Positions 52,451 to 61,299 of a stretch of 64,000 bases of DNA are shown piece by piece (the stretch's first letter is position 1; every line of letters begins with the position of its first letter). The stretch is taken from positions 4,402,001-4,466,000 of the forward strand of contig NZ_CP043046.1 of NCBI RefSeq assembly GCF_008119665.1. The letters run 5' to 3'. The stretch is from Pigmentiphaga aceris. Its GTDB lineage: Bacteria; Pseudomonadota; Gammaproteobacteria; Burkholderiales; Burkholderiaceae_B. Made by a program: the position numbers and the translations under genes. Under the pieces are notes generated by a model that did no database searches, was not told the origin of the DNA, and worked only from the letters and a program-made list of their open reading frames with translations.

Positions 52451-52473
52451 GCGTGCAATTTTCTCACACGTAT

Positions 52474-52489
52474 ACGGCATTAATGTCGT
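52474..52489. promoter_or_regulatory. Candidate LysR operator
   Basis: ACG-G-CATTAATG-T-CGT is a 16-bp dyad with one mismatched pair, centred 31 bases before the LysR start and between LysR and the MFS coding region. An A/T-centred palindrome in a divergent LysR gap is the standard binding arrangement. Confidence 0.45.
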
Positions 52490-52602
52490 TTGTCACGTGC
52501 CTGGTGGCGGCGCAGCATTGGGGGCTGCTCAGGTCTCTGCGGCTCAGACGGCTTCGCAAACTGTGCAGCTCACGCAACCCGCCAGCCCCCCACACGACCG
52601 AC

Positions 52603-53763
52603 ATGCCCCGCGCCGCCCAGCCTCCTCAAAACACCCATCTCGTCAATCGCGATTCCAAATTTGCGGCACTGGCCTTGGCCCTGGCGCTGCCGGCCGACAC
52701 CGTGCTGTATCTGTTGCTGCCGATGTACGCAGAACAATTTGGCGTGACGCTGGCACAAGCAGGCTTGCTGCTGGCAGCCAATCGGCTGATACGCATCGTT
52801 GGCTATGGCTTTGTGGCGCGCTTCTATGCCAGGCATGGTGACCGCCTGACCTGTACCTTGGCCGTGGTGGCCGCCGCGATCTGCGCGCTGGGGTACGCCA
52901 CCTTGTCGGGCCTGTGGGCGCTGCTGCCGCTGCGATTGCTGTGGGGCTTGTCGTTCGCTGCGCTGAACCTGTCCACGCAGATGCTGGCCACGGCAGACCC
53001 GGTTGGCGCTGCGCAGCGTTCCGGTCGATCACGTGCATTCACGGCACTTGGGCCGGTCATTGCGCTGCCAGTCGCGGGCCTGCTTGCCTACGGATACGGG
53101 CCACGCCCGGTCTTCTGGTTGCTCGCTGCCACCGCGCTGCTGGGCTTGCTGGTTACTCGCCAACTGTCACGACATCACCAGCCCACGCCAGCAAAACGGC
53201 GCGGCCTCACCCGCCCGAACAGCCTGGACGTGTGGTCCTTCCTGGAAGGCTTCACGCTGGATGGCCTGTTCATCATCGGCTTGTCGTATCTGGGCAGCGA
53301 GCTGTTGCCTGGCGGCGCAGTGGTGATGGCGGGCACGCTGTTGGCGGCGCGTTATCTGGGTGAAATCGTCTTGAGTCCACTGGGTGGCCGACTGGCCGAA
53401 CGCTTCGGCGCAGAGAACGCGTTGGTGGGTCTGTCCTTGCTGACCTCGGCTACCTTGATCGGTTTCGGCCTGGGCTGGTTCTGGAGCGGTGCGGCGGCCA
53501 TCGTGGTGCTCAGGGCATTGCAGTTGCCGTTGCTGGCCCCTATCGTCGCGCAGCGGACGCCCGGACCGGAACGGGTACACGCACTTGCGGCGCGGTCCGT
53601 GTGGCGGGATATCGGTGCCGGCACCGGTCCGTTGCTGGCCGGGGTCTTGCTGCCCTTCATGTCCCCGGCCTGGCTTTACAGCGTACCCGCGCTGTTGCTG
53701 GCAGGCGCGGCGATAGCCTGCGTACAGCGTCCCGCCCCCGGTGCACTACCGCAGGAACGTTGA
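52603..53763 (+). CDS. MFS transporter
   Basis: Major facilitator superfamily permease, 386 residues, about 12 hydrophobic segments. The first helix is LALALALPADTVLYLLLPMY and the motif-A-like loop follows as ARFYARHGDRLTC. GGRLAERFGAENALVG near residue 260 is the second-half counterpart. The start is uncertain: ATG 52603 gives a normal cytoplasmic N-terminus, whereas the frame is open back to 52453 with an unconserved Arg/Leu-rich extension that would run over the LysR operator. The substrate is unknown. Its stop is five bases from that of the convergent next gene. Confidence 0.82.
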   Translation: MPRAAQPPQNTHLVNRDSKFAALALALALPADTVLYLLLPMYAEQFGVTLAQAGLLLAANRLIRIVGYGFVARFYARHGDRLTCTLAVVAAAICALGYATLSGLWALLPLRLLWGLSFAALNLSTQMLATADPVGAAQRSGRSRAFTALGPVIALPVAGLLAYGYGPRPVFWLLAATALLGLLVTRQLSRHHQPTPAKRRGLTRPNSLDVWSFLEGFTLDGLFIIGLSYLGSELLPGGAVVMAGTLLAARYLGEIVLSPLGGRLAERFGAENALVGLSLLTSATLIGFGLGWFWSGAAAIVVLRALQLPLLAPIVAQRTPGPERVHALAARSVWRDIGAGTGPLLAGVLLPFMSPAWLYSVPALLLAGAAIACVQRPAPGALPQER

Positions 53764-53768
53764 ACGCC

Positions 53769-56408
53769 CTATCGCTTCGATACCCCTGCCCCGCCCTCGC
53801 CTGGCTGACGTGACGCAACCAGCACGAACAACATCGTGGCGACCAGATAGACCATGCCGGTCATGGCCAGGCCCGGACCAATGCCGACCAGCGTGAACAA
53901 GGTGCCCACGAACAGCGGGCCGATCATCTGGCCCAGCTTGTCGGCGGCGCGCATGACACTGGTGGCCGCCCCTGCGCCGTATTGCTGCACATTCGGCAAG
54001 GCCAGGGTCCAGGTGGTCTGGGCTGCACCCGACCAGCAACTGCCCAGCGCCAGCAGGAACACGGCCATCGACACCGCAAACAGGCTGCTGTCGACATATA
54101 GGTAGGCCATGCCCGTACCGCCCAGCAGGCCGCCCAGCGCGATGAAATATTTCTTGGTGCGGGTGCGATCCACCACGCGCCCGATCATCGGGCCAAGGTA
54201 GATCATGCACAGGCCATACAGCATCAACACACGGCCAATGCTGGAAGCTGCCACCCCTTGCGCTTCCAGGTACAGGGGCAGCGCAAAGTACAGCAGCCCC
54301 ACCTGGGCGATGGAAAACGGCACCACGCTGCCCGCCAGCAAGGCACCAAAATCACGGCTGCCGATCAATGCACCAAGGCGCTTTGCGCGTGCGGAAAGAC
54401 CCAGTTTTGGCGTGATACCTGCAGCGGAACCCGAAGCAGATCCTGCGCGAGTAACCGTACCGGAAACCGGGCTGACGACGGCAGCAGCACGAACAGAACC
54501 TTCGGCAGCACCACCCACAGCGCCAGCAGACATCGCCGCGGCAGCCGATTCCTTTTTCCACCGACGCGCCATCACAAACGCGCCGATCAGGGGCAGCATC
54601 AGCACCACGGCGCTGGCAATGAAGACCGGCCGATAACCCGCCTGATCTGCCAGCATGGCACCCACCGCCGTACCCGACAAATGCCCGGCGAACAGCCCGG
54701 CAACCAGCCAGGCCATGTTGCGGCCACGGAATGCCGGCTTGCTGCCGGCGATCACGAAACCTTGCAAGCCCATCCAGGCCAGCCCGTAACCCAGGCCAAC
54801 CACACCGCGCGCCAGTGCAAACCATTCCAGATTCACCGCACTGGACGCCAGCAGGGAACCGCAGGCTGCCACCACCAGACCACCCAGCACCGGCACAGGC
54901 CAGCCCCGACGATCGGTCAGACGGCCCGCCAGCAACGCGCCACCCAGACCGCACAACATTTCCACCGACAGCGGCAAGGCCAGCAAGATGTCGGGCGGCA
55001 AGGACAACAATTGCACCGGCAAGGTACGCGCATACAAAGGCATGAAGCTCAGCGGCAAGGCCCAGGCAAACAGGAACCCGAACATCAGCGGCCGGGCCAC
55101 GCGGGCCACGTTTTCGGCGCGATTGGACTCGGTTTCCAGCAGCGCGGTCGTGCCATTGGCCCGGGCCTGCGCACGCACCGTGCGTGCCATCACCAGGGTC
55201 AAGAGCAGGAACATCTCGAAAGCGGTAATGGCAGAGATCAGCGCCACGGTACCGGCGTCCAGCACCCGCGACCGCACGCCCGCGGCAATGACGGCGGCAT
55301 CCAAGCGAACATCGAGCGTGCCCGCCCCGATGCGATAACCGCCCGCGCTCGCCATGCTGACCGGCAGCGATATCTGCAGTTCGTCCTGGATTTCACCCGG
55401 CATCGGGGCCGCTGTGGGGGCAACCTGTCGGGGGCCACGCGCATCTGCACCGACCAATACCCGGCCGTGACTATCGCGCAGCGACACATGCTCGATGGCG
55501 GGCAAGGTGGATGCCAAGCGGGTGAACAAGGTGTCCACCCCGCGCAGGCGATCGATGGAAATGCCCATGTCCAGCACACGACCGATGTCCGCCTGCATGC
55601 GACCGACCAGCATGGTGACGTTGGCGCGCGTGTTTTCCAGCCAGGCGCTGCGGAACGATGCAATGGTGTCGGCCGAATACACACCTTGCGCCAGAATCAG
55701 GGCGATCAACGGCACCGCAAGACGGGCGCGGCCACCTGGGCGCGTCAAGGTGTCGAACGGCACGACCCAACCCAGCGCCACGATCAGGAAGATCGCAGCC
55801 GCAAGCGTGGTCAATCCCAACACCATCACGGTGCGATGCAGGAAAGCCTGTTCTCGCGCGGCCTGATCGGTGTTGTCGACGGCAAGCACCAGCACACCGT
55901 CCAACTGTGACTGTCGGCCATGCAAAGGCACGGCCAGCGCAAAGGTATTGGTGCTGGTCATCATGACCGCGCCGCTGCGCAGGCGGCTCATGTCGCTGTC
56001 CGTCTGCAAGGCCGAGGCTGGGGCCGCAAATGTCTTGGCAAGCGCAGGTGCGCCTGGCAGTGCGGTCGAGGTCTGCGCCAGCACATAACCGTCGGGCAAC
56101 AGCACCGTGGCACCGACCAGATCCGGTAAATGGCTGAAGTTGCGATCCAGCAACGCCGCCAGCCCGAAATACTGGGCAATCGGCTTGCCCAGACGCAAAC
56201 CGCCCTCGATCTTGGCGGCGGTGTCGCGTGCCAGCAGCTCGACGCGTTCAGCGGTAGTGGCGGTGGAAAGTCGATTGAACGCGGCCAAGCCTAGTGCGGC
56301 GGTCAATGCTTGCGCCAGCACCAGAATCAGCAGGCAAGCGCCGATCACTTCGGCGACAACCACACGGCGGCGACGTGCCGCGACGGCGGTAACTGCCCGC
56401 GTATTCAT
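53769..56408 (-). CDS. Sensor-MFS fusion protein
   Basis: An unusual 879-residue membrane protein. Residues 20-42 form a first helix, followed by an extracytoplasmic domain to about 190 (with LPDGYVLAQTSTALPG, resembling Cache-type sensors). Two helices follow near 195-250, then a second extracytoplasmic segment to about 375 (with HVSLRDSHGRVLVG), and a helix near 380-405. From about 440 to the end there is a complete 12-helix MFS transporter with motif A as GRLTDRRGWPVP and its repeat IGRVVDRTRTKKYF. An Ala/Gly/Ser-rich linker separates the MFS halves. It is divergent from the SpoIIE-phosphatase gene (90-bp gap). The sensor domains may gate transport or the MFS may act as a receptor; both are inference. 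Confidence 0.78.
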   Translation of the reverse strand: MNTRAVTAVAARRRRVVVAEVIGACLLILVLAQALTAALGLAAFNRLSTATTAERVELLARDTAAKIEGGLRLGKPIAQYFGLAALLDRNFSHLPDLVGATVLLPDGYVLAQTSTALPGAPALAKTFAAPASALQTDSDMSRLRSGAVMMTSTNTFALAVPLHGRQSQLDGVLVLAVDNTDQAAREQAFLHRTVMVLGLTTLAAAIFLIVALGWVVPFDTLTRPGGRARLAVPLIALILAQGVYSADTIASFRSAWLENTRANVTMLVGRMQADIGRVLDMGISIDRLRGVDTLFTRLASTLPAIEHVSLRDSHGRVLVGADARGPRQVAPTAAPMPGEIQDELQISLPVSMASAGGYRIGAGTLDVRLDAAVIAAGVRSRVLDAGTVALISAITAFEMFLLLTLVMARTVRAQARANGTTALLETESNRAENVARVARPLMFGFLFAWALPLSFMPLYARTLPVQLLSLPPDILLALPLSVEMLCGLGGALLAGRLTDRRGWPVPVLGGLVVAACGSLLASSAVNLEWFALARGVVGLGYGLAWMGLQGFVIAGSKPAFRGRNMAWLVAGLFAGHLSGTAVGAMLADQAGYRPVFIASAVVLMLPLIGAFVMARRWKKESAAAAMSAGAVGGAAEGSVRAAAVVSPVSGTVTRAGSASGSAAGITPKLGLSARAKRLGALIGSRDFGALLAGSVVPFSIAQVGLLYFALPLYLEAQGVAASSIGRVLMLYGLCMIYLGPMIGRVVDRTRTKKYFIALGGLLGGTGMAYLYVDSSLFAVSMAVFLLALGSCWSGAAQTTWTLALPNVQQYGAGAATSVMRAADKLGQMIGPLFVGTLFTLVGIGPGLAMTGMVYLVATMLFVLVASRQPGEGGAGVSKR

Positions 56409-56422
56409 ACGAAACTTTTCCT

Positions 56423-56452
56423 TTGTGAGAATTCGCTACGGCCAAATATAAT
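56423..56452 (+). promoter_or_regulatory. Sigma-70-like promoter of the SpoIIE-phosphatase operon
   Basis: TTGTGA (56423-56428) and a perfect TATAAT (56447-56452) are spaced by 18 bases, ending 46 bases before the ATG at 56499. It lies in the short gap shared with the divergent sensor-MFS gene. Confidence 0.65.
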
Positions 56453-56498
56453 CCAGCTCCTTACAAGGCGGGCGAAATATAGGGCAAGTCAAAAAAAG

Positions 56499-58526
56499 AT
56501 GGTCACTTCCCTAAGAACGCGAATCTTCATGCTGATCGCCGCCATGCTGGTATTGGTGGCGGCTTTTGTCATGCTGATCACGCAGCGCGCTGTTACAGAC
56601 ACCGTCTATGGTTCTGAAGAACGCGCCGCAATCAATGCGCTGCGCCTGGTGTCGCTGGACATCGAGGCCCGTTATGGCCAGCTGCTGCGCGAAAAAATCG
56701 CCACCGTGCGCAGCTCACGCGCGCAACTGGAAAGCCACGGCAATACGGTCGAGTCCACGCTGAACAGTTTCGCCGCCTTGGCCAAGACCGGCGTGATCGA
56801 TCGCGCCGCCGCCCAGCGCCTTGCGCTGGACTGGATCAACGAGTTGCATGGCAGCGACAACATCCAGGTCATGGTCTACGACCGCTCGCTGCGCGTGCTT
56901 GCCCACCCCCAGGCGGGCTTTCGCGGCATCAGTCTGAATCTGCTGCGCGACATGAAAGGCCGCGCGATTGCCGAAGACATGTACAGGGGCAGCGGCGTTC
57001 CGCTGTTCGGCGTGTACCCCTGGCCCAGTGCCACCAATGGCGAGATCGATACGCACTTCGGCTACTTCCGCCGCTTTGCCGCCTGGGATTGGGTATTCGT
57101 GGTGGGCAGCGAGGCCGGTACGGTCGAGCGCACGGTCGCGGCAAAACGCAAGGAAATCGTCACCGCGTTGGGTGAAACGCTGAATCGTCTGACCCTGGCG
57201 CGTTCGGGCTTCTCGTTCGTTTTTGCCGACAACGGCGATATGGTGGTGTCGCCACCCGACCGTGCAAGCGCCCTGTTGAATGGGCGCGATGCGGCTACCG
57301 GACAGCCACTGCGCGAATTGCTCAAACAGGCGGCCGAAGACACGACTGGCGTCACACATGTATCGTTCCGGCCGGAAGGTACTGGCGGTGAAGACTGGGA
57401 GCTGTACGCCACCTACGTCAAACCCTTGAAATGGTATGTGGCCGGTGCGGTTCCGCGCAGTGACCTGATGAGCCCCGGACGCGCCTTGCTGCGCCAGCAA
57501 GGGCTGGTGTTCCTGGCCATGCTGGGCGTGGCCATGTTGCTGGCCTGGCTGTATGCCTCGCGCCTGATCCGCCCCTTGAAACTGCTGACGCGTTATGCGC
57601 GTGAACTGCCCGACCGAGATCTGACAGTGGCCCATCAGGTGCCAAAAGCGGTTGCTGAATTGCCCACGCGTTATCGCGACGAAGTGGGTCGCCTGGCCAC
57701 CACGCTGCTGTACATGGAACAGCAACTGCGAGGCAACGTGGCGCGGCTGATGTCGGAAACCTCTGCCCGCGAACGCATCGAGAGCGAACTGTCGATTGCC
57801 CGCGACATTCAGCTTGGTCTGCTGCCCATTCGCCTGGTGCCGGAAGTCACCGAACGTGTGGACCTGTTCGCCACCATGACGGCTGCCAAGGAAGTGGGCG
57901 GCGATCTGTACGACTACTTCATGCTGGGCGACGGGCGGATGTGCTTTGTGATCGGTGACGTGTCCGGCAAGGGCGTGCCGGCAGCCATGTTCATGGCGAT
58001 CACCCGCACCCTGGTGCGCGCTGCCGCACGCGACGAATCCAGCGCGGGCGACCTGATGTCTGCCATCAACGACCGTCTGGCCGAACACAATCCGAACATG
58101 ATGTTCGTGACGCTGTTCATCGGCATTCTGGATCTGGACAGCGGCGCGCTGCAATACGCCAACGCAGGGCATCCGCCCCTGTGGCTGCTGCACGAAGGCA
58201 AAGTCACCCTGCTGACTGGCCGCAGCGGCCCCGCTTGCGGGGTGGTCGAAGACATTCCTTATGCCGAATTCGACTGCCATCTGGCACCGGGTACGCTATT
58301 GGTCGGCTATACCGACGGTGTAACCGAAGCCGATTCCACCGACGGCAGCTTCTATGGCGACGACCGCGCGCTGCGCCTGCTGGAAAGCCTGCCGCACGAC
58401 AGCAGCAGCCAGACCGCCGCCGAAGCCTTGCATGCCGATGTGGTGCACTTTGCCAACGGTGCCGAGCAGGCCGACGACATCACGCTGATCGTGGTGCGCA
58501 GGCATCCCTCCGAGACATTGTCATGA
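56499..58526 (+). CDS. Membrane sensor with HAMP and SpoIIE-type PP2C phosphatase
   Basis: Signal-transducing phosphatase, 675 residues. An N-terminal helix (residues 8-28) and a helix near 330-352 bracket a large periplasmic Cache-like sensor. A HAMP region follows (ASRLIRPLKLLTRYARELP, then VGRLATTLLYME). The PPM/SpoIIE domain spans about 425-670 with all metal-binding motifs: IARDIQLGLLP, KEVGGDLYDYF, VIGDVSGKGVPAAMFM, GYTDGVTEA and ADDITLIVV. It should be an active Ser/Thr phosphatase. No anti-sigma or anti-anti-sigma gene is in the window. It overlaps the next gene by four bases. Confidence 0.88.
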   Translation: MVTSLRTRIFMLIAAMLVLVAAFVMLITQRAVTDTVYGSEERAAINALRLVSLDIEARYGQLLREKIATVRSSRAQLESHGNTVESTLNSFAALAKTGVIDRAAAQRLALDWINELHGSDNIQVMVYDRSLRVLAHPQAGFRGISLNLLRDMKGRAIAEDMYRGSGVPLFGVYPWPSATNGEIDTHFGYFRRFAAWDWVFVVGSEAGTVERTVAAKRKEIVTALGETLNRLTLARSGFSFVFADNGDMVVSPPDRASALLNGRDAATGQPLRELLKQAAEDTTGVTHVSFRPEGTGGEDWELYATYVKPLKWYVAGAVPRSDLMSPGRALLRQQGLVFLAMLGVAMLLAWLYASRLIRPLKLLTRYARELPDRDLTVAHQVPKAVAELPTRYRDEVGRLATTLLYMEQQLRGNVARLMSETSARERIESELSIARDIQLGLLPIRLVPEVTERVDLFATMTAAKEVGGDLYDYFMLGDGRMCFVIGDVSGKGVPAAMFMAITRTLVRAAARDESSAGDLMSAINDRLAEHNPNMMFVTLFIGILDLDSGALQYANAGHPPLWLLHEGKVTLLTGRSGPACGVVEDIPYAEFDCHLAPGTLLVGYTDGVTEADSTDGSFYGDDRALRLLESLPHDSSSQTAAEALHADVVHFANGAEQADDITLIVVRRHPSETLS

Positions 58527-59761
58527 CCTTCCGTTCGATTCCTATGTCCTTGGCGCAGTTGCCGCGTCTGCTGTCCTGCACGGCCTTGGCCCTGGCCTGC
58601 GGGTGGAGTGCCAGCGCAGTTGCGGCCGACCCGGCACCGACCACCCCGGCAAACGTCGCCACCACGGACGCCTCCCCGCGCGTATTTCCGGTCACGCCAA
58701 CCCGCAAGCCTGATGGCACGCGCTGGCGGCTGGGCTACCTGCAAGGCGGCGACTACGGCGACTACCCGATCATTCTGTCGGCCATTGTGCGCGGCATGAT
58801 TACCCTGGGCTGGTTGGAAGACCTGGAGATTCCTGATGCGCGGATCACCAGCTCACAAGACATCTGGGCATTCCTGGCCACCAAGGCCAAAAGCCAATAT
58901 GTGGAATTCGTGCCTGACGGCTACTACAGCCCTGGCAACTTCAACGCCAAGCTGCGGCCCGAGGTACGCGACGCACTGACGGCGCGCCTGAACGACAAGC
59001 GCGACCTGGACATGATGATCGCCATGGGCACCTGGGCAGGCCAGGACCTGGCGCGTGCGCAGATAACGGTGCCGACCATCGTGGCATCGACCAGCGACCC
59101 GGTAGCTGCCGGCATCATTGCCAGCACCGACGACAGCGGCCGCGATCATGTGCACGCCAAGGTCGAACCCGAACGTTATCAACGCCAGGTGCAGCTGTTC
59201 CATGACATCGTGCCCTTCAAGCGCCTTGGCATCGTCTATGAAAACAGCGCCGAAGGCCGCACCTTCGGCGGCGTCGATGCGGTCGAACAGATGGCAACCC
59301 GCCTGGGCTTTGCCATCGAAGCCTGCCACGCCCCTTTCAACAACGTCACACCGGCCGAGGCCATGCAAGGTGCAGAAGCCTGCTACGCCAAGGTGGCCGC
59401 CAAGGCCGATGCCGTGTATCTGACCGTGCACCGTGGTGTCACCAGCCAGTCGCTGGGGCCGATCGTGGACACCTTGCTGAAGGCGCGCCTGCCCAGCTTT
59501 TCGATGCTGGGATCGGACGAAGTACGGCGCGGCGTGTTGATGAGCATGGCCCAGGCCGATTACTCACACGTCGGCCTGTTCCACGCGGAAGTCATGGCGC
59601 GCATTTTTCACGGCGCAAAACCGCGCGAGCTGAGCCAGATCTGGCTGTCGCCTGCCGAGATCGCCATCAACCTGAAAGCGGCCGAGATCATCGGCTTTGA
59701 TCCGCCCATCGATATTCTGTTGGCATCGGACGAGGTTTACGACAGCGTCGGCGACAAATAG
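58523..59761 (+). CDS. ABC_sub_bind-family exported protein
   Basis: Exported binding protein, 412 residues. The signal peptide ends near ASAVAADP (residue 33). The two-lobed domain shows WRLGYLQGGDYGDYPIIL near residue 70, MMIAMGTWAGQDLARA near residue 168, IVASTSDPVAAGII and FKRLGIVYENSAEGRTFGG near residue 232; this is the type I periplasmic-binding fold of the ABC_sub_bind group. No ABC permease or ATPase follows, and the ATGA overlap with the phosphatase gene suggests it acts as a ligand-presenting partner of the sensor. The stop codon lies in the first copy of a 15-bp direct repeat (59759-59788). Confidence 0.82.
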   Translation: MTFRSIPMSLAQLPRLLSCTALALACGWSASAVAADPAPTTPANVATTDASPRVFPVTPTRKPDGTRWRLGYLQGGDYGDYPIILSAIVRGMITLGWLEDLEIPDARITSSQDIWAFLATKAKSQYVEFVPDGYYSPGNFNAKLRPEVRDALTARLNDKRDLDMMIAMGTWAGQDLARAQITVPTIVASTSDPVAAGIIASTDDSGRDHVHAKVEPERYQRQVQLFHDIVPFKRLGIVYENSAEGRTFGGVDAVEQMATRLGFAIEACHAPFNNVTPAEAMQGAEACYAKVAAKADAVYLTVHRGVTSQSLGPIVDTLLKARLPSFSMLGSDEVRRGVLMSMAQADYSHVGLFHAEVMARIFHGAKPRELSQIWLSPAEIAINLKAAEIIGFDPPIDILLASDEVYDSVGDK

Positions 59762-59802: not shown

Positions 59803-61299
59803 TCAGATCACGGCAGCCGTCGCCCACTGACTGGGATGCAACACGGTTTGTTGCGCGGCCAGCCCCGCCAGGCGCTGATCGCGGTCACCGCCCAGGCTGT
59901 GCCAGGTTTCCAGCATGCGATCCGCCCCGGTGCGCTTGTTTTGCCAGACCCAATCGGCATAGCCCAGCCAATGGCGATCCCCGGCGTCCAGCCCGGCACG
60001 TGCCACGGCCAGCACCTCGCCCGCAAACGCATGTACGGCGGCATCATCCAGCGCGGCAGCCACTGCCGGCTGGCGCAACGCCAGCAAGCGCTGCCAACCC
60101 CAGTCAGCCACCAATTTTTCGGCTTCTTCCAAGTTGGCAAGCAGGCCCGCCTGCACGGCCGACGCCGACATCACCACCGTGGCGGCCACGTCAGCCCCGG
60201 CTTCTGCCAGCAGCCCGGCATCGGGGAAATTGGCACCTGGGCAACGGCCTTCGATGTAGCCCTCGGCACCATATTCCGCCATCAGTGTTTCCAGGTTGCG
60301 GCGGCCGTGCAAGGCTTCCAACAGTTCAGGCACCGGTGGCAGGCTGCCAAAACGGAAGCGAAAGCGCGCGTCCAGGAAGGGCATGAATTGCAGGTATTCG
60401 AAGTGCATGGCAGACGGGGCCAACATGACGGACTCGCCGCTGTCGCATGCAATCCCCGGCCAGGCAGATTCCGCCAGGAAACGCATCAGGGATGGGTCCC
60501 CTTCCGGCCGCGCGGTGTGCGATGCGCCCTTGTAATCTCGACTGCTGGCAAGCGGCACCGTGTGCATGACGGTGCCCACGCCATAGGCGCGGCGAAAGTA
60601 GTCGGCCAGATCGCTGAAACGCCTGCCTGGCGTCTGTGACAAACGCGCGTCGCAAGGAAATTTGGCGGCCGCGAACATGCGCGGCCAGATCGACAAGCGG
60701 TTTTCCTTGAGCCCGGTGGGCATGCCGCCTTCCAAGGGGCTATTGGCAAACAGCGCAATGGACGCCGGAGCCGCAGCCAACACCACATTGACTGCCCGCG
60801 CCGCCAAGGCCAGCGGTATCGAGGTCGTGGGGCCGTTCTGGGCTTTTGCGTCGATGCCGACGCGGTGCTGCCAACCCCGATAGTCCACCCAATGGTCGTA
60901 CAAAGGCTTGGGCGCACGCACGGCGCGATATGCGGCTTCGTCAGTGGGACAGTCCGGGTGCTCGGAGGTATTCAGCAGTACGGCCCCTTCCTCTGCCAGT
61001 GCGTCGATCACGTCACCAAGCTCGGTCGTCACCATCGCGTCAAGGCGAGCCAGGCCGCCTGCACCGCCCTGCACTGGCCCCAGCGCGCTTTCAAGATGGT
61101 TGAAGGCATTGTCCAGGCCGCTATCGACCCCGTCGCTCAAGACCGCCACGGTTTTGCCTGACAACTGCTTTTGCTGCGGCACCTGACCACGCGCCCGCTT
61201 GCGGCGCGACATGCTGTCGAAATAGCCAGACACAGCATGGCTGCGCCCAGTCTTCTGGTTCGCAACGACCATCTCCATTTCCAAACCGATCTTCTTCAC
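59803..61299 (-). CDS. Glutamate-cysteine ligase family protein (GCS2-like)
   Basis: ATP-dependent carboxylate-amine ligase of the GCS2 group, 498 residues. GLEMEMVVANQKTGRSHAV at the N-terminus provides the metal/ATP acidic residues. TTSIPLALAARAVNVVLAAA and ALFANSPLEGGMPTGLKENR (residues 172-215) are landmarks shared with plant/proteobacterial GCS. HFEYLQFMPFLDARFRFR near residue 320 corresponds to the late catalytic region. Gamma-glutamylcysteine synthesis is possible but other amine substrates are not excluded; gshB is not adjacent. GTG start with a strong AGGGGGGAG ribosome binding site. Confidence 0.68.
   Translation of the reverse strand: MKKIGLEMEMVVANQKTGRSHAVSGYFDSMSRRKRARGQVPQQKQLSGKTVAVLSDGVDSGLDNAFNHLESALGPVQGGAGGLARLDAMVTTELGDVIDALAEEGAVLLNTSEHPDCPTDEAAYRAVRAPKPLYDHWVDYRGWQHRVGIDAKAQNGPTTSIPLALAARAVNVVLAAAPASIALFANSPLEGGMPTGLKENRLSIWPRMFAAAKFPCDARLSQTPGRRFSDLADYFRRAYGVGTVMHTVPLASSRDYKGASHTARPEGDPSLMRFLAESAWPGIACDSGESVMLAPSAMHFEYLQFMPFLDARFRFRFGSLPPVPELLEALHGRRNLETLMAEYGAEGYIEGRCPGANFPDAGLLAEAGADVAATVVMSASAVQAGLLANLEEAEKLVADWGWQRLLALRQPAVAAALDDAAVHAFAGEVLAVARAGLDAGDRHWLGYADWVWQNKRTGADRMLETWHSLGGDRDQRLAGLAAQQTVLHPSQWATAAVI

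Follow-up and report, generated by a model that had tools for sequence, protein, structure and literature searches.

Within a 64,000-nucleotide stretch of the Pigmentiphaga aceris genome (contig NZ_CP043046.1, positions 4,402,001 to 4,466,000; hereafter the window), we analysed a block of four genes and compared it across 151 genomes of the family. A first-pass annotation had described three of these genes as a sensing module consisting of a major facilitator superfamily (MFS) protein fused to sensor segments, a SpoIIE-type phosphatase and an exported binding protein. The three genes, their coordinates, the 90-bp gap and the 4-bp overlap between them all hold in the sequence and by Pfam. The annotation had left out a fourth gene, btrM, which closes the block and belongs with the other three. 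On the evidence set out below we assign the four genes to btrO, btrU, btrN and btrM, which would mean that part of the Bordetella Btr partner-switching locus lies here, displaced from the rest. The features are as follows.

53769-56408, minus strand: btrO, an 879-residue sensor-MFS protein (PF07690 and predicted structure; orthologs in 39 of 151 genomes)
55836-56282, minus strand: btrO sensor segment 1, residues 43-191, Cache/PDC-like
55281-55676, minus strand: btrO sensor segment 2, about residues 245-376, putative diverged repeat of segment 1 (profile-profile comparison and secondary structure of the model)
53817-55139, minus strand: btrO MFS part, residues 424-864 (PF07690 and Foldseek matches to MFS transporters)
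56409-56498, no strand: divergent gap of 90 bp between btrO and btrU, with a promoter-like consensus match at 56423-56452
56499-58526, plus strand: btrU, a 675-residue Cache-HAMP-SpoIIE serine phosphatase (Pfam, conserved aspartates)
58523-59761, plus strand: btrN, a 412-residue PF04392 (ABC_sub_bind) binding protein, exported (Pfam, overlap with btrU)
59803-61299, minus strand: btrM, glutamate-cysteine-ligase-like (PF04107, 35.7 bits against a cut-off of 21), convergent with btrN

Architecture of the btrO-btrU-btrN-btrM block

All four reading frames of the block are intact, and btrU and btrN overlap by four bases (ATGA). The promoter-like match in the divergent gap points to btrU; two overlapping matches fall in 56300-56620, compared with a shuffle mean of 0.1, a figure that concerns agreement with a consensus only. 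An ordinary-looking second MFS transporter gene (52453-53763) is convergent with btrO and ends five bases from the btrO end.

The best PF07690 stretch in BtrO spans residues 443-818. Because the AlphaFold model of the full protein returned MFS-type transporters only among the 50 Foldseek matches listed, we folded the N-terminal half alone. Its matches were modest (five, with E up to 0.001), with Cache sensors mixed with Roadblock- and profilin-like folds, and by structure comparison segment 1 resembles domains of amino-acid receptors, among others. Segment 2 matched segment 1 in a profile-profile comparison with a probability of 95.4 and an E of 1.7e-8. The Cache-type call by structure covers mainly residues 22-203, and segment 2 is placed by profile comparison and the secondary structure of the model. 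Together these data support a predicted Cache-type fold for segment 1, with segment 2 as its putative diverged repeat. In the predicted structure the N-terminal half has an extracytoplasmic Cache/PDC fold between membrane helices, as is characteristic of that superfamily, and the proposal that this half of the MFS protein contains a sensor fold is thus borne out by the model and the profile comparison.

BtrU contains sCache_2/dCache_2, HAMP and SpoIIE domains in Pfam, and aspartates 469, 472, 487, 606, 659 and 660, which belong to the PP2C catalytic set, are kept in 45 of 45 aligned sequences. It shares the build of an envelope-sensing PP2C phosphatase with SiaA of Pseudomonas aeruginosa, to which it aligns over BtrU residues 266-667, but it scores 60.1 bits against the SiaA model (NF038263), whose cut-off is 700. 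SiaA works with SiaB, SiaC and SiaD, and with no RsbW-type kinase. Likewise, BtrN falls in the same Pfam family as the TrpX-type PF04392 binding proteins and matches solved chains in sequence (PDB 3lft, 3lkv), but it reaches only 63.8 bits against the TrpX model (NF041285; cut-off 390). With both scores far under the curated equivalog cut-offs, we rejected BtrU as SiaA and BtrN as TrpX. The start of BtrN looks by eye like a signal peptide, and the family shares no cysteine near the start. No ATP-binding cassette permease gene was among the identified neighbours of btrN, no gene-by-gene search having been aimed at permeases. BtrM is not a housekeeping ligase, as 111 of the 151 genomes had no match; the organisms named among the 120 listed of its 232 relatives belong to genera of the Alcaligenaceae.

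Conservation of the block and its match to the Bordetella btr locus

We set ortholog cut-offs at visible gaps in the scores (E 1e-100 for btrU, 1e-60 for btrO, 1e-90 for btrN, and 1e-12 for btrW and btrM). A simple gene-calling heuristic missed or mis-stranded genes, btrN of the window included, and block counts were taken from ortholog positions instead. Orthologs of btrO were found in 39 genomes, btrU in 39 (from 20 genera), btrN in 41 and btrM in 40, the last with one match per genome. btrN lies within 500 bp of btrU in all 39 genomes with btrU, and btrO does so in 36 of the 37 genomes that have both, making btrN and btrO the most constant neighbours of btrU. btrM lies within 5 kb of btrU in 34 of 38 genomes with both, and BtrW, the kinase of the Btr switch, is present in 38 of the 39 btrU genomes, its gene being within 12 kb of btrU in 33 of those 38. 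Co-occurrence of btrU with each of btrO, btrN, btrM and btrW gave a Fisher p of <1e-29, values that are not true probabilities because the genomes are related. The 4-bp overlap of btrU and btrN recurs in relatives at 40 of the 42 places compared (33 of 33 in one set and 7 of 9 in another), the two genes being free of overlap in L105 and L132. The recurrence of the same overlap and the co-occurrence across relatives indicate that the block is a real module, as had been proposed for the trio. Neither of the two outcomes named as refuting that proposal, rare co-occurrence or an MFS protein whose N-terminal half lacks a sensor fold, was observed, and adjacency of btrU and btrN in 39 of 39 genomes and 20 genera rules out chance adjacency.

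Many relatives have a longer block that encodes a STAS protein, an RsbW-like kinase, an alanine racemase, the sensor-MFS protein, the phosphatase, the binding protein and the ligase. The full set of seven was called in 13 of 55 stretches, some genes having been missed by the simple gene caller. In Bordetella the order is btrV-btrW-alr-btrO-btrU-btrN-btrM-btrA-btrS (table 3 of PMC7498569), corresponding to BP2226-BP2234 (BtrV, BtrW, alr, BtrO, BtrU, BtrN, BtrM, BtrA/BspR and BtrS), and the named locus of Bordetella sp. LUAb4 (L079) has all seven genes in btrV-to-btrM order. The block resembles the Bordetella locus in its btrO-btrU-btrN-btrM order, with btrO and btrU divergent and btrU and btrN overlapping, its order and orientation pattern are those of relatives with the whole locus, and the P. 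aceris genome encodes orthologs of BtrW, BtrV and BspR. P. aceris differs in that the locus lies in three distant places, lacks a btr-type racemase and is accompanied by a second SpoIIE module. The first-pass annotation knew of no characterised system with this combination of genes; by gene order and co-occurrence, the combination matches the Bordetella btr locus. The system is thus already known, and the locus in P. aceris is a dispersed variant of it.

The Btr proteins resemble partner switches of the RsbU/RsbV/RsbW type in comprising a phosphatase, a STAS protein with a conserved serine and a HATPase_c_2 kinase. According to section 6 of PMC7498569, BtrU, BtrV and BtrW are all needed for secretion through the type III secretion system (T3SS) in Bordetella and none is a negative regulator; the same section lists alr, BtrO, BtrN and BtrM without known function and names no signal for BtrU. 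Within the portions of the literature examined, we found no report of the 40 of 42 overlaps, of the second module, or of the absence of a T3SS marker from 26 of 39 btrU genomes described below.

Distant partners, a second module and type III secretion

The statement that no anti-sigma or STAS gene lies here holds for the window, where we found none of the 7 STAS (PF01740) and 23 HATPase_c_2 (PF13581) matches of the genome (searched over G000:C1:4402001-4466000, G000 being P. aceris). It fails for the genome as a whole. A single match to BtrW reaches an E of 1e-12; it lies at 1.235 Mb, about 3.2 Mb from the window in contig coordinates, and BtrV lies at 1.2445 Mb with both Ser54 and Ser55 present. 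These two serines occur in 32 of 32 BtrV sequences and are reported to be phosphorylated in Bordetella (PMC8076611). STAS and HATPase_c_2 matches also cluster at L126:7859-11298 (G000:C1:1029859-1033298), in what is probably another partner switch.

Neither btrV nor btrW adjoins btrO, btrU or btrN in P. aceris. Between btrV and btrW lie a nucleobase permease gene and an iron-uptake set (an extracytoplasmic function (ECF) sigma factor, FecR and a TonB-dependent siderophore receptor), the latter at L127:10514-16714, between btrV and the permease-btrW pair. The permease gene is found within two genes of btrW in 17 of 55 stretches, P. aceris included, and its presence beside btrW in relatives supports common descent of the btrW piece. 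The btr locus therefore appears to have been split beside btrW in this genome. BtrW is also kept in other genomes in which its gene is unlinked to btrU or on another contig (G011, G050, G139 and G114). The btr racemase is distinct from the housekeeping one, as 33 of the 39 btrU genomes have at least two matching stretches (those of G011 may be pieces of one).

P. aceris contains a second module at 5.2165-5.2234 Mb (L121:7464-14448, equivalent to G000:C1:5216464-5223448), about 33 kb beyond its T3SS island. It runs through genes for a 264-residue protein with no Pfam match, a 961-residue SpoIIE protein, a 773-residue sensor-MFS protein and a 329-residue PF04392 protein, joined by 4-bp overlaps or abutting ends. 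In the btrO search, its own MFS stretches were 26-30% identical. In one congener (L122) genes for MFS, PF04392, racemase and SpoIIE proteins form one run, with BtrW and BtrV encoded in the same 20 kb; L123 looks similar, with a binding-protein-like frame. That these parts recur in another arrangement, distant in sequence from the first, supports a functional link between them. The parts are also separable. In two genomes, G009 (L119) and G049 (L120), genes for the ligase, the MFS protein, the racemase and the binding protein form a single run, and neither btrU nor btrW has a match there; G139, together with second copies in G077, G100 and G120, has racemase, phosphatase and binding-protein genes with no adjoining MFS gene. 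From these loci it follows that btrO and btrN are each independent of btrU in some genomes. The first-pass annotation had suggested ligand presentation by the binding protein to one or both membrane sensors; since G009 and G049 have btrO and btrN and lack btrU, btrN must have some other role as well.

The T3SS island of P. aceris lies at about 5.158-5.184 Mb, some 0.7 Mb from the window, with SctC, SctJ, SctN and SctV over their cut-offs. It encodes BspR/BtrA (NF052467, 236 bits; cut-off 160), and an ECF sigma gene adjoins BspR, no BtrS-specific model having matched it. Three tandem similar reading frames in the island (L140:5974-8150), with no NCBIfam match, likely represent a multiplied secreted or tip protein. 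In a B. pertussis study, alr of the btr locus was raised along with T3SS genes after exposure to blood (PMC7828420).

We scored T3SS presence across the survey by one marker, SctJ (TIGR02544), for which a score gap separates 188 from 81 bits. SctJ was found in 13 of the 39 btrU genomes and was absent from 26, of which 20 are at least 98% complete. T3SS is nonetheless commoner with btrU, the marker being present in 13 of the 112 other genomes (Fisher p 0.005), and SctJ lies within 20 kb of the block in 7 of the 13 btrU genomes that bear it. BspR occurs in 11 of the 151 genomes and BtrW in 42. All 11 BspR genomes have SctJ and BtrW; nine have a btrU ortholog, and the other two (G029 and G088) have the second module type. 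In this sample, then, BspR comes with the switch, whereas the switch is often found without BspR. A quick BtrU tree, in which 12 forks are open and the outgroup is distant, places the T3SS-linked rows in two parts and contains a clade of 18 rows without SctJ. We found no published statement that the Btr cassette is common without T3SS, in a literature viewed largely in part and hence as weak evidence of absence.

A probable partner switch with a proposed sensing and transport branch

The best supported explanation of these findings is an envelope-sensing partner switch with a small-molecule sensing and transport branch formed by BtrO, BtrN and BtrM. Its observed basis is the gene order and co-occurrence, the domain folds, the partners encoded in the genome, and the conservation of the catalytic and phosphorylation residues. 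The Cache domain of BtrU would detect a signal in the envelope, and BtrU would strip phosphate from Ser54/Ser55 of the STAS protein BtrV, to which the kinase BtrW would add it; in P. aceris BtrU would have to act on a distant BtrV. The likely output is the T3SS with BspR/BtrA and the ECF sigma gene, 0.7 Mb away. BtrN would capture a small ligand in the periplasm, and BtrO may sense and move a small molecule, perhaps amino-acid-like. The block of relatives includes a second alanine racemase and BtrM resembles an amine ligase, which suggests an amino-acid-like ligand, an identity that we rate at less than even odds. BtrN may contact BtrO or BtrU, a prospect we rate as somewhat doubtful. We consider it highly probable that the block is part of the Btr switch and uses the distant BtrW and BtrV.

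Several observations weigh against this explanation. The btr identity, with BP2229-BP2232 as the presumed counterparts, is read indirectly, from the order of the genes, their co-occurrence and two named loci, L079 and L080. None of the five other sampled genomes of the genus yielded an ortholog of btrO, btrU or btrN at our cut-offs, and P. aceris has no btr-type racemase, its one racemase match adjoining a RadA-like gene. Two reviews differ on the effect of phosphorylation, which promotes BtrV-BtrW binding according to PMC8256260 and releases BtrV according to PMC8076611. Finally, the second SpoIIE protein, which has a sensor-MFS and a PF04392 protein beside it, could itself be what dephosphorylates BtrV, and is the main complication for the proposed mechanism of BtrU.

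This complication can be extended into an account in which the second module, close to the T3SS, supplies the phosphatase for BtrW, BtrV and the T3SS of P. aceris, while the window block has lost its link and is drifting or serves another STAS protein, of which the genome offers seven matches. G029 and G088, with BspR and BtrW and the second SpoIIE type only, fit this account, as does the position of the block apart from btrV and btrW and without a racemase. However, drift sits poorly with the intact catalytic aspartates, 4-bp overlap and four reading frames, and BtrW is also present in the unlinked genomes G011 and G050; we regard the account as unlikely. That the block is uncharacterised and has no relation to a known locus would agree with the lack of a partner-switch gene in the window, but the order and co-occurrence of its genes are those of the btr locus, and we give this idea almost no credence.

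A different question is what the Btr set is for. It may at root be a module that senses and transports a nutrient, either an amino acid or a gamma-glutamyl compound, with a partner switch attached, in which case T3SS would have been linked later in a few lineages and the window block would retain the older role. The 26 btrU genomes without SctJ, most of them nearly complete, point this way, as do the presence of BspR in 11 genomes against BtrW in 42, the runs without btrU or btrW in G009 and G049, and the resemblance of BtrO segment 1 to amino-acid receptor domains, among others. Against it stand the greater frequency of T3SS in btrU genomes, the T3SS with BspR in P. aceris itself, and the possibility of T3SS loss in many lineages. 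We view this origin as a serious possibility that falls short of being the likelier one. We are similarly tentative about its fuller form, in which the cassette is by origin an Alcaligenaceae-type system for periplasmic amino-acid, possibly D-amino-acid, sensing, transport and racemisation with a partner switch, and not a T3SS regulator, the same parts (SpoIIE phosphatase, sensor-MFS, ABC_sub_bind and alanine racemase) having been assembled in two sequence-distant architectures and injectisomes having been plugged in more than once.

Returning to the partner switch with its sensing and transport branch, many relatives without the T3SS marker keep the gene set too, and the sensing and transport genes of the btr set therefore probably do something more general than T3SS control. 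G009 and G049 are natural examples in which the transport branch could be studied by itself. The 26 of 39 btrU genomes free of the T3SS marker offer a place to ask which signal the Btr switch detects and to what end, and an answer would be relevant to how Bordetella perceives its environment.

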